From Flavobacteriaceae bacterium (GTDB lineage: Bacteria; Bacteroidota; Bacteroidia; Flavobacteriales; Flavobacteriaceae), in assembly GCA_013043005.1 (NCBI GenBank), contig JABDOZ010000141.1, forward strand, positions 1 through 36,494: a stretch of 36,494 nucleotides of DNA, read 5' to 3'. The position numbers were made by a program, and so were the translations under genes. Below, in pieces: positions 6,534-29,551 of this stretch (within the stretch, counting starts at the first letter, position 1; each line of letters begins with the position of its first letter). The notes beneath the pieces are model-generated. The model did not search any database, was not told the origin of the DNA, and saw only the letters and a program-made list of their open reading frames with translations.

Positions 6534-6555
6534 TACTTTTTGTTTTGGTTTCTCT

Positions 6556-6590
6556 CAAAAATAGCAATTTTTATTGCTGTTTACAACAAA
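6556..6590 (-). promoter_or_regulatory. Candidate promoter of the kynurenine operon
   Basis: On the minus strand a -7 box TATTTTTG (6563-6556) matches the Bacteroidota consensus TAnnTTTG. Upstream on that strand lies TTTGTTG (6590-6584), with 20 bases between its end and the -7 box, a spacing that fits the -33 TTTG element. The distance to the kynU TTG start is about 22 bases, giving a short leader. Motif match only. Confidence 0.5.
6563..6578. promoter_or_regulatory. Dyad symmetry in the kynU/methyltransferase divergent promoter region
   Basis: The perfect dyad AGCAAT-TTTT-ATTGCT lies between the two facing start codons and overlaps the spacer of the kynU promoter. It is placed where a repressor or activator could control both directions. 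Regulators of kynurenine operons elsewhere include Lrp/AsnC-type KynR, but no regulator gene is adjacent here, so the binding protein is unknown. Confidence 0.35.
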
Positions 6591-6593
6591 TAA

Positions 6594-6601
6594 TAAATTT
6601 G
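6594..6601 (+). promoter_or_regulatory. Candidate -7 box of the divergent methyltransferase gene
   Basis: TAAATTTG matches the Bacteroidota -7 consensus TAnnTTTG and lies 31 bases before the ATG at 6633. A TTG at 6574-6576 is the nearest -33-like match but its spacing (17) is shorter than usual. Single-box evidence only. Confidence 0.4.
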
Positions 6602-6632
6602 TAAATTTAAATTCTTAACCGCAATCAAACCG

Positions 6633-24589: not shown

Positions 24590-27226
24590 ATGAATATTCC
24601 TTCTAAATATGATGCAAGTAATGTAGAAAGCAAGTGGTATGATTACTGGATGAATCACAATTATTTTCATTCAGAACCAGACAATAGGGAACCCTATACT
24701 ATTGTAATACCTCCACCGAATGTAACAGGTGTGTTGCATATGGGGCATATGCTTAACAATACCATTCAGGATGTTCTTATAAGGAGAGCTCGTTTAATAG
24801 GGAAAAACGCTTGTTGGGTTCCTGGTACAGATCACGCTTCTATAGCAACAGAGGCTAAAGTTGTAACTAAACTGAAGGAGCAAGGAATTGATAAGCACGA
24901 TTTAACCCGAGAGGACTTTTTAAAGCATGCATGGGAATGGAAAGAGGAATATGGTGGTGTGATATTGGAGCAGTTAAAAAGACTTGGTTGTTCATGTGAT
25001 TGGTCAAGAACTAAATTCACCATGGATGGTGATATGAGTGAATCCGTGATCAAGGTTTTTATCGATCTGTACAATAAAGGTCTTATTTACAGAGGATTTA
25101 GAATGGTCAATTGGGATCCGGAAGCTAAAACAACCTTATCTGATGAAGAAGTTGTTTACGAAGAAAAACAAGGCTTCTTATATTATTTGCAATATGATGT
25201 TGTTGATAGTGATGAAAAGGTAATTATCGCAACAACACGACCAGAAACTATTCTTGGTGATACAGGAATTTGCATAAATCCAAATGATAAAAGGTTCAGA
25301 CATTTAAAAGGTAAGAAAGCGATCGTACCAATATGTAATAGAGTGATTCCAATTATTGAAGATGAGTATGTTGATATTGAATTTGGAACAGGTTGTTTAA
25401 AGGTAACGCCGGCTCATGACTTAAACGATAAAGAACTGGGAGAAAAATACAATCTTGAAGTAATAGATATATTCAATGATGATGCAACATTAAACAGCTA
25501 TGGCCTGCATTACGAAGGAAAAGACAGATTTGTTGTTCAGAAGGAGATTATTAAGGAATTAGATGAGAAAGGATATTTGGTAAAAACCGAAAATTACATT
25601 AATAAAGTTGGTAAAAGTGAACGAACCAAGGCTGTTATAGAACCAAGGTTAAGCGATCAGTGGTTCTTGAAAATGGAAGACTTAGTAAAACCTGCCATTT
25701 CATCAGTTCTCGAGGATGGAGAAGTTATGTTCTTTCCTAAAAAAATGGAAAACACTTATCGTCATTGGATGGAAAACATTCGTGATTGGAATATATCTCG
25801 TCAGTTAATGTGGGGGCAACAAATTCCGGCTTATTATTATGGTGATGGAAAAGATGATTTTGTTGTTGCCGAAAATAAGGAAGCGGCCTTAAAATTAGTA
25901 CGAGAAAGGACTTCCAACCTCAAACTACAAGTTTCAGATCTAACTCAGGATTCAGATGTGTTTGATACCTGGTTCTCATCTTGGTTATGGCCAATTTCTG
26001 TGTTTGATGGCATACGAAATCCTGACAATAAAGAGATAGGATATTATTATCCAACCAACGATCTCGTAACTGCACCGGATATAATTTTCTTTTGGGTTGC
26101 AAGAATGATCATTGCAGGATATGAGTTTAGACAAAAGAAACCATTTCAAAATGTCTATTTTACTGGATTAGTGAGAGACAGTAAAGGTAGAAAGATGTCT
26201 AAACAACTGGGAAATTCTCCAGATGCTTTAAAACTGATTGATCAATATGGTGCCGATGGAGTAAGGGTAGGAATGTTATTGTTAAGTTCTGGAGCGGGTA
26301 ATGATCTGTTGTTTGATGAAGACAAATGTCAGCAGGGGAAAGCTTTCGCAAATAAAATATGGAATGCCTTTAGATTGATAAATGGATGGGAAGTTAATAA
26401 TAAATTGGAGCAGCCTAATTCAAGCAAAATAGCCTTAAAGTGGTTTGAATCCAAGCTGAATATGGCTCTATTGGAAATTGATGATCATTTTACGAAATTT
26501 AGAATATCTGATGCCTTAATGGCAACATACAAACTAATTTGGGATGATTTTGCCTCTTGGTTATTGGAAATTGTTAAACCTTCATACCAGCAACCCATAG
26601 ATGCCTTAACCAAAAAAGCAGTAGTAACATTTTTTGAGGATCTTCTAAAGATCTTACATCCTTTTATGCCATTTATTTCAGAAGAAATATGGCAACTCAT
26701 TGAGGAAAGAACTCCTGAAAATGCTCTAATTATTTCAAGTTTACCTGAGATAAAAAAATCAGACTCCTATCTTATTAATGAGTTTGAGTACGCCAAAGAA
26801 GTTGTTTCCGGTATACGAACGATCAGGAAAGAAAAAAATATTTCATTTAAAGAAACCATAGATTTTGCTGTGTTGAACAACGACCTGGTTAAGGCTACAT
26901 TTGATGATGTGATCATTAAGTTGGGAAGTCTGAAAGGAATAAACTATATAAACGAGGCTGTTGATGGCGCTTTATCATTTAGAGTTAAATCCAATGAATA
27001 TTATATACCTGTGTCTGGGGCTATAAATGTTGAAAAAGAAATTGAAAAATTAAAAGAAGAACTGGTATATACCAAAGGATTCCTAAGATCGGTTCAAAAG
27101 AAGCTAACAAACGAACGGTTCGTGAACAATGCTCCTGAGCAAGTGGTTGCCAATGAGAAGAAAAAGGAAGCAGATGCTTTGGCAAAAATTGAAACCCTTA
27201 AAGCGAGTTTAGCAAGTTTGAATTAG
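24590..27226 (+). CDS. valS: Valyl-tRNA synthetase
   Basis: An 878-residue class I aminoacyl-tRNA synthetase. The HIGH motif reads HMGHM (about residues 46-50, after PPPNVTG) and the KMSKS motif reads KMSKQ (about 535-539). The CP1 editing domain carries TTRPETILGDT (about 214-224), the WDPEAKTTLSDEEV motif is near 175, and the C-terminal coiled-coil arm ends the protein. Length is normal. Charges tRNA-Val and edits mischarged threonine. Single gene with its own promoter. Confidence 0.98.
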   Translation: MNIPSKYDASNVESKWYDYWMNHNYFHSEPDNREPYTIVIPPPNVTGVLHMGHMLNNTIQDVLIRRARLIGKNACWVPGTDHASIATEAKVVTKLKEQGIDKHDLTREDFLKHAWEWKEEYGGVILEQLKRLGCSCDWSRTKFTMDGDMSESVIKVFIDLYNKGLIYRGFRMVNWDPEAKTTLSDEEVVYEEKQGFLYYLQYDVVDSDEKVIIATTRPETILGDTGICINPNDKRFRHLKGKKAIVPICNRVIPIIEDEYVDIEFGTGCLKVTPAHDLNDKELGEKYNLEVIDIFNDDATLNSYGLHYEGKDRFVVQKEIIKELDEKGYLVKTENYINKVGKSERTKAVIEPRLSDQWFLKMEDLVKPAISSVLEDGEVMFFPKKMENTYRHWMENIRDWNISRQLMWGQQIPAYYYGDGKDDFVVAENKEAALKLVRERTSNLKLQVSDLTQDSDVFDTWFSSWLWPISVFDGIRNPDNKEIGYYYPTNDLVTAPDIIFFWVARMIIAGYEFRQKKPFQNVYFTGLVRDSKGRKMSKQLGNSPDALKLIDQYGADGVRVGMLLLSSGAGNDLLFDEDKCQQGKAFANKIWNAFRLINGWEVNNKLEQPNSSKIALKWFESKLNMALLEIDDHFTKFRISDALMATYKLIWDDFASWLLEIVKPSYQQPIDALTKKAVVTFFEDLLKILHPFMPFISEEIWQLIEERTPENALIISSLPEIKKSDSYLINEFEYAKEVVSGIRTIRKEKNISFKETIDFAVLNNDLVKATFDDVIIKLGSLKGINYINEAVDGALSFRVKSNEYYIPVSGAINVEKEIEKLKEELVYTKGFLRSVQKKLTNERFVNNAPEQVVANEKKKEADALAKIETLKASLASLN

Positions 27227-27315
27227 TGTTTTCGTAAAGGGTCCAGATTAATCTAATGGAAGTCAAATGGATGCTATTGGTATTTTAGCTTATATAAGCA
27301 ACAGTATTCATAATT
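27227..27315. other. Gap between valS and the methyltransferase
   Basis: No gene, no clear terminator hairpin and no repeat was found in these 89 bases, although the two flanking genes converge. Confidence 0.4.
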
Positions 27316-28134
27316 TTAAAATTGTTTAAACCAATCATAGGAACGTTCATCTTCCTTGATTTTTTTTAAAGCAATCATACTAGTATTTAATTTAAACTGT
27401 CTATTTTTTTGAGCAATGTGTCCGGGAAGTATCCGAGAAGTAACAGAGAAAGGTAAGATAAGAGATAGCAATTTCAATGGAAAAGTTAATATTTTTTCTA
27501 ATTCTCTTCTTGGATAAGACATTTCAACTGTACCGATAACTTCGTAACTTGGATATTGCGATATATAGCCCATTAGTTTATTAATACTCGGGTAAGTCAC
27601 ATCATCGAAAATAATTATTCCATTAACTGAAAGCATTTTATTTATATAAAAAAAATCAATTAGTGTATGGTCTAATGTATGCCAACCATCAATAAATCCT
27701 AAGTCAAATTTTTTTCCATCTTTTAACAATTTTGGTAGAGCTAATTCTGAATAGTCTTCAATTAATTCAAAGTAATTTACTCCAGTTTTTTTTAAATTTT
27801 CAAATCCAATATTATTCCATTGTGATGATTGAAACGGATCTATTATTGTGTGATGTTTAGAATATTTCTTTGATAGTCCTAAACAAATGAACAATGATGA
27901 TAATCCATATGCACACCCAACTTCAATAGTATTTGTAATATTGTTACTTTCGATAATATTCTGAATAAACTCACCCTCTTTTTTACTAATACTGGTTAAT
28001 CCAACTTCATATTCTTTGTTATTAGAGTCAAATACTTTACCTGAACTATAGATTTCTTCTAATAAATGTTGTATTTCCTTTATTTTGGTCTTACTATGAT
28101 TACTAATTTTAATGATATGAAATTGTATTAATGT
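27316..28134 (-). CDS. Class I SAM methyltransferase (Methyltransf_24-like), no standard start codon
   Basis: An open frame of 273 codons. Motif I is TIEVGCAYGLSSLFIC, encoded at about 27886-27930; downstream are IDPFQSSQW, FIDGWHTLDHT and IIIFDDV, typical of methyltransferases acting on small molecules or glycans. The only TTG (27894) would begin inside motif I and remove the SAM-binding glycines, so it cannot be the true start. Upstream codons read as normal protein (for example KEYEVGLTSISKKEGEF) up to a TAA at 28137, but no ATG, GTG or TTG occurs there. Either a rare start such as ATT is used or the 5' end has been lost. It lies next to a decayed gene, which favours partial loss. Confidence 0.7.
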   Translation of the reverse strand, partial: TLIQFHIIKISNHSKTKIKEIQHLLEEIYSSGKVFDSNNKEYEVGLTSISKKEGEFIQNIIESNNITNTIEVGCAYGLSSLFICLGLSKKYSKHHTIIDPFQSSQWNNIGFENLKKTGVNYFELIEDYSELALPKLLKDGKKFDLGFIDGWHTLDHTLIDFFYINKMLSVNGIIIFDDVTYPSINKLMGYISQYPSYEVIGTVEMSYPRRELEKILTFPLKLLSLILPFSVTSRILPGHIAQKNRQFKLNTSMIALKKIKEDERSYDWFKQF

Positions 28135-28195
28135 TTATTTAATATGTTATTTGTTCGTCTTTTGTAAGTCACACATCAAAATTGAACTCCTGTAA

Positions 28196-28604
28196 CTAAA
28201 ACCTATTTTTAATGGGTCCGATCACAAAATGGTTCGTTAAATGATTCACCAAATAAGTAATAAGCTGTTGTTCTTTTTATTAGCCGTTTCCTTACCCTCA
28301 TTTTTTTACTTTTTATGTACCACCGTGAACCAATAATGGACCATTTCTTTAAACTTAAACGCTTGTTTCAACAGGGTTTGATTTTTCTACTTCTTTCATT
28401 TAATAATCTTACGTCTCTAAATTTTTTTTATATTATCCCTTTAATTCTGAGTTGCTTTCATTTTCTATAGTTATCTAGAACTTTTCATTTGGTTTTAAAC
28501 ATTTGGTAAAGTCTTTACACATTCTGCAGAATTGATACACTTGGTAAGAACCATAAAACAGATAATTTACCATTGATATAATTCCTTGTAATTTCTTTTT
28601 TCAT
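28196..28604 (-). pseudogene. Decayed (4Fe-4S)-binding (Fer4_19) plus CDGSH iron-sulfur fusion gene
   Basis: Not one open frame, but ordered fragments on the minus strand match a known fusion. From the ATG at 28604: MKKEITRNYINGKLSVLW. After a frame change, 28539-28498: CINSAECVKTLPNV. After another, 28495-28436: KPNEKF, a TAG, then ITIENESNSELKG. Then 28378-28322: NPVETSV with two TAA codons before RNGPLLVHG. Finally 28268-28212: GESFNEPFCDRTH, then a TAA. The first half fits divergent 4Fe-4S mono-cluster proteins (PF06902) and the second the CDGSH domain (PF09360). Two CDGSH cysteines have become aromatic residues. At least three stops and several indels make it non-functional. Confidence 0.82.
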
Positions 28605-28634
28605 AACTGGTTTTTAAATTATTAAAAATGAAAC

Positions 28635-28901
28635 TTACTTTCTGTATAAAAAATAATTATTGACCAAATCAATATATTTTTGTTTGGCTTCATTCTCTGA
28701 AATATCCTCTAATTGAAAGATTGCATTGGTCTTAAACGCATTGATAATTGGTTTTTTACTACCTGGTCTGCTGTAATCGTTTGTTGCCTTTTTGTAGTAC
28801 GCATATAATTTTAACAACACATCGGCCGGAAATGGATCTGTATATTCATTTATTCTTTTAACAGCTTCTTGGAATTCTATGTCTAATTTTTCAGAAGTCA
28901 T
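28635..28901 (-). CDS. Acyl-CoA-binding protein
   Basis: An 88-residue four-helix ACBP: the core YAYYKKATNDYSRPGSKKP (about residues 33-51) carries the conserved Tyr/Lys residues that hold the CoA phosphates. It binds medium and long acyl-CoAs in the cytoplasm, buffering them for lipid synthesis. Its ATG overlaps the end of psd by four bases (ATGA), so it is last in the phospholipid operon. The helix 3 region is slightly divergent from eukaryotic ACBP but length fits. Confidence 0.93.
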   Translation of the reverse strand: MTSEKLDIEFQEAVKRINEYTDPFPADVLLKLYAYYKKATNDYSRPGSKKPIINAFKTNAIFQLEDISENEAKQKYIDLVNNYFLYRK

Positions 28902-29551
28902 GGTTTTTCGGCAACAACATTAATGCCTCCTTTTACTTTTTGGTTTAAGCTTACTTTAATTTTAGTATCTAAAGGTAAGAACAAATCAACTCTACTACCA
29001 AACTTTATGAAACCAGCGTCTACACCCTGAACAGCCAAATCATCTTCCTTGGCATAATTAACTATTCGTCTAGCCATAGCTCCTGCAATCTGTCTGTATA
29101 CAACTTGACCATAAACTTTATTTTCTATAACTACAGTAGTTCGTTCATTTTCTTCACTAGATTTTGGATGCCATGCAACCAGATATTTTCCAGGATGATA
29201 TTTACTAAAGAGTATTTTTCCACTAATAGGGTAGCGGGTCACATGAACATTAATTGGAGACATAAAAATACTAACCTGCAATCTTTTGTCCTTAAAATAT
29301 TCTTTTTCAATGACTTCTTCTATCACAACGACCTTGCCATCAACTGGTGCCAAAACTTGATTATCGTTTAGGATTGTTTGTCGTTTAGGATTTCTAAAAA
29401 ATTGGGCTATCAGTATAAAAAGAACTAAAAATGTAATCAGTAAAATTATTCTTAGCCATTTAATCTCCATAAATTGGTCTGTCAGCAAGCTTAATCCCAA
29501 AAGCAGAATAAATGAAATGATCAGTATTTTATGGCCTTCCTTATGAAACAT
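28898..29551 (-). CDS. psd: Phosphatidylserine decarboxylase, short form
   Basis: A 217-residue proenzyme of the short PSD family that makes phosphatidylethanolamine. Two hydrophobic segments (about 8-24 and 33-51) anchor it to the inner membrane. The autocleavage site is Gly185-Ser186 in FIKFGSRVD, giving the pyruvoyl cofactor; APVDGKV (about 68-74) and HVTRYP (about 103-108) are family motifs. It overlaps cdsA by 11 bases and the ACBP gene by four. Confidence 0.95.
   Translation of the reverse strand: MFHKEGHKILIISFILLLGLSLLTDQFMEIKWLRIILLITFLVLFILIAQFFRNPKRQTILNDNQVLAPVDGKVVVIEEVIEKEYFKDKRLQVSIFMSPINVHVTRYPISGKILFSKYHPGKYLVAWHPKSSEENERTTVVIENKVYGQVVYRQIAGAMARRIVNYAKEDDLAVQGVDAGFIKFGSRVDLFLPLDTKIKVSLNQKVKGGINVVAEKP

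Follow-up and report, generated by a model that had tools for sequence, protein, structure and literature searches.

A broken Fer4_19-CDGSH fusion gene in an apparently empty interval downstream of acbp in a Flavobacteriaceae genome

The association of the CDGSH domain with Fer4_19 has already been described in bacteria and archaea (PMC5859297), and both the gene family and its fusion architecture are published; the locus reported here is an ordinary pseudogene of that family. A functional protein of this type requires a single open reading frame, the complete 3Cys-1His ligand set of CDGSH and the cysteines of Fer4_19. We analysed a contig of 36,494 nucleotides (the window) from a Flavobacteriaceae bacterium whose genome assembly comprises 2.2 Mb in 181 contigs and is 73.5% complete; the closest matches of the window's phosphatidylserine decarboxylase gene, psd, likewise belong to Flavobacteriaceae. 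We found that an apparently empty interval of the window, at 28198–28607 on the minus strand, is a pseudogene of a fusion of Fer4_19 (PF06902, a 4Fe-4S domain) with CDGSH (PF09360). Like the described fusion proteins, it has both domains, with their order and spacing unchanged over the full length, and intact Flavobacteriaceae members align with it from end to end. Unlike those proteins, it is interrupted by stops and frame breaks, and it lacks the C-x-C pair among the CDGSH ligands as well as a Fer4_19 cysteine.

The minus strand of 28196–28604 contains no long open frame. A sequence-only reading of this DNA, made before our analysis, had picked out six short peptides as remains of a fusion gene, separated by stops and small indels. 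All six are present on the minus strand and in the right order, distributed over three frames: MKKEITRNYINGK and GESFNEPFCDRTH share one frame, CINSAECVKTLPNV lies in a second, and KPNEK, ITIENESNSELKG and NGPLLVHG lie in a third. The by-eye assembly of fragments across frames was thus accurate. Because tblastn with the protein of an intact copy from the same genome (on contig C8, described below) did not report the pseudogene, we wrote a frameshift-tolerant aligner, in which a profile of intact Flavobacteriaceae Fer4_19-CDGSH homologues is aligned locally and without guidance to DNA, with penalties for frameshifts and stops. The best path extends from model position 1 to 140 of 142 and from window position 28607 to 28198 on the minus strand, such that homology covers the full protein over about 140 codons. 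This path carries nine frame breaks and five in-frame stops, counts that vary with the alignment chosen. The Fer4_19 half occupies 28424–28604 and the CDGSH half 28198–28350, both on the minus strand.

The match is far stronger than expected by chance. The pseudogene scored 277 against the profile, whereas 1000 dinucleotide-preserving shuffles of the region gave a mean of 37, a standard deviation of 5.8 and a maximum of 73; no other part of the window (237 further tiles, both strands) exceeded 61, and the opposite strand of the same interval scored 29. Each half was also significant by itself, with scores of 173 for Fer4_19 (shuffle maximum, 54) and 131 for CDGSH (shuffle maximum, 58). The two domains are therefore matched in order on the minus strand, and the proposal that order and spacing lie beyond chance is upheld. 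When the interval was read through its breaks under the guidance of the family alignment, the resulting protein matched both domains at E values of about 1e-5, with 25.3 bits for Fer4_19 (over its cut-off of 24) and 26.7 bits for CDGSH (slightly below its cut-off of 29.5). Because of that guidance, independent evidence comes from the shuffle test. A chance match, considered as a candidate explanation, was rejected on the shuffle test of the pseudogene's score.

Damage to the pseudogene extends to residues that bind the clusters. In the Fer4_19 half, the first two cysteines (CINSAEC) are retained and the cysteine of CPSGAL is gone. In the CDGSH half, the C-x-C pair has been replaced (AFCRC to AYYLF), and the CD and H of the motif are retained (FCDRTH). 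The interval thus has neither the single open reading frame nor the full set of CDGSH and Fer4_19 ligands required of a functional member. Because several cluster-binding cysteines have been lost, the pseudogene cannot make the protein; judging by the ligand pattern of these families, the parts that can still be read would be unable to bind the two clusters as intact members do, and, judged from its sequence, the locus has no protein function now.

An intact version of the gene is present elsewhere in the same genome and also in many of the Flavobacteriaceae genomes sampled. The copy on contig C8 (G000:C8:4275-4688, locus L001) encodes 142 amino acids, and both of its Pfam domains score well over their cut-offs. 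A second match was found in only 8 of 176 other matching genomes; one copy per genome is therefore usual. The intact gene of relatives lies mostly in one of two places, either beside kynU in a kynurenine operon or in a cluster with the order FMN reductase - fusion gene - MarR - pirin, and in the remaining cases elsewhere; the C8 copy is of the latter cluster type. The group to which a gene belongs matches its genomic home (L001-L030, L141-L170), each of the two contexts forming a tree group of its own. In the window itself, the slot next to kynU (6534–6632) consists of 99 bases leading to the usual neighbour of kynU, a methyltransferase gene, and shows no trace of the fusion gene, which many relatives keep at this place.

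We also compared mismatches by codon position. At second positions, mismatch between the pseudogene and intact genes was 0.23–0.35, against 0.10–0.23 between intact genes. The distribution over the three positions was flattened relative to intact pairs, with some third-position excess left, a pattern that fits a gene once under selection and then decaying for some time. The raised second-position mismatch makes the divergence look partly neutral and, together with the intact homologues on C8 and in many relatives, is what a pseudogene would show. The loss had been described initially as recent, a description that is poorly supported in view of some nine frame breaks, five stops, raised second-position differences and lost ligands. 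Given these breaks, differences and losses, the locus looks like an extra copy that has been dead for some time, as opposed to a gene that normally occupies the position between acbp and valS and was freshly lost. We consider it very probable that the pseudogene is a dead extra copy of the Fer4_19-CDGSH family, and we are much less sure of the route by which it arrived.

The upstream neighbour of the pseudogene is an intact gene for an acyl-CoA-binding protein (acbp; PF00887; 28635–28901, minus strand), whose position next to the intact psd (PF02666; 28898–29551, minus strand) is conserved. Relatives keep the order ftsH - lud - cdsA - psd - acbp, and valS, encoding valyl-tRNA synthetase, follows acbp convergently wherever the available sequence reaches it. 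In the window, valS (24590–27226, plus strand) forms the other, conserved border of a spacer that is itself variable, measuring 18 to 2658 bases across 31 relatives. The window's spacer is 1.4 kb long and AT-rich, and it holds the pseudogene and an accessory methyltransferase frame. A DNA search with the spacer across 397 genomes of the family recovered no conserved spacer: its matches were all short or weak, and some of them fell in intact family members at other places. No Rfam family was found in 27000–29000.

The alternative that fares best, and the one adopted in the sequence-only reading, is that a gene native to the genus decayed in place, its orthologue in the acbp-valS spacer of close relatives being intact. 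The pseudogene is co-directional with psd and acbp and starts about 30 bases past the acbp stop, and may thus once have ended their transcription unit. Against this, neither an intact nor a broken fusion gene was present in the sequence fetched for 80 psd loci, none of which come from the pseudogene's genus. The best profile scores, 82 for these loci over their whole lengths and 68 for the other fetched loci, resemble background for sequences of such lengths. Furthermore, in relatives with psd and the fusion gene close together on a single contig, the distance between the two is about 19–42 kb. The spacer is not a usual place for this gene in the family. The initial expectation that a relative would carry an intact copy therefore holds for many genomes of the family, and indeed for this genome, but not for this position in the 80 loci compared. 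As all of the compared genomes lie outside the pseudogene's genus, an intact copy beside acbp may occur in some close relative, and we regard decay in place as improbable, though deserving of some weight.

A second alternative is that the C8 copy of this genome was duplicated late and that the duplicate then decayed fast. The C8 copy is in the same genome, belongs to the same family and shares with the pseudogene the side of the tree without kynU copies; the pseudogene itself sits there on an end branch of 1.37 with no firm placement. An arrangement in which the two are sisters was neither rejected nor favoured (AU p 0.114), and they do not group together in the unconstrained tree. At the DNA level, however, the pseudogene is 68.3% identical to the C8 copy, which is intact and lies in another place, and about 66–70% identical to several other lineages. 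Since the C8 copy does not exceed those lineages in identity, late duplication is unlikely, and we rank it somewhat below decay in place.

A third alternative, that a copy moved from the kynurenine-operon home beside kynU and then died, draws on the many examined relatives that keep the gene there and on the presence in the window of the flanking genes without a copy. The copies in that home (e.g., L030, L023 and L028) encode the same fusion protein; they differ in forming a separate group, stably placed next to kynU, with the pseudogene outside it. Forcing the pseudogene into this group lowered the log-likelihood by 38.9 (AU p 0.0009), and a relic of a kynurenine-operon copy was thus rejected, leaving such an origin very improbable. 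Finally, a fortuitous resemblance, or an intact gene garbled by sequencing or assembly errors, can be dismissed almost entirely: the assembly is fragmented, but the score comparison above speaks against chance, the breaks are limited to the pseudogene and acbp, psd, cdsA and valS are intact, which makes a locally bad assembly unlikely, and the cluster cysteines were removed by substitutions, which indel errors would not cause.

We return to the reading of the pseudogene as a dead extra copy. In the most probable account, an additional copy of a gene common in Flavobacteriaceae reached the permissive, variable spacer between acbp and valS, as an old paralogue or by horizontal gain, either of which appears more likely than late duplication of the C8 copy. 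The gene presumably once worked. It would have been redundant with the copy now on C8, and this redundancy may have allowed its loss, with decay proceeding by point mutations, stops and small indels. The family is mostly single-copy and occupies alternative homes that match its gene groups. One might further speculate that the pseudogene marks the replacement of one genomic lineage of the gene by another; this genome would then still carry both, the loser as the pseudogene at a third location and the winner as the C8 copy. We hold this only tentatively, as a minority possibility.

These results have little meaning past annotation, where they correct a seemingly empty interval to a pseudogene. 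They also provide one data point on the turnover of a poorly studied iron-sulfur protein whose gene lies mostly in one of two homes in Flavobacteriaceae.

The other occupant of the spacer, an open frame for a SAM-dependent methyltransferase (Methyltransf_24; 27316–28107, minus strand), has only distant homologues, at about 30% identity or less, among 149 genomes of the family. No ATG, GTG or TTG start precedes its conserved domain: the first listed start, a TTG at 27894, would cut the SAM-binding region, and the Pfam match begins at residue 61, near 27927. This gene may use a rare start, or may also be decaying. The spacer between acbp and valS (27226–28635, and the same interval in L031-L110) is possibly a site of both gene gain and gene loss.
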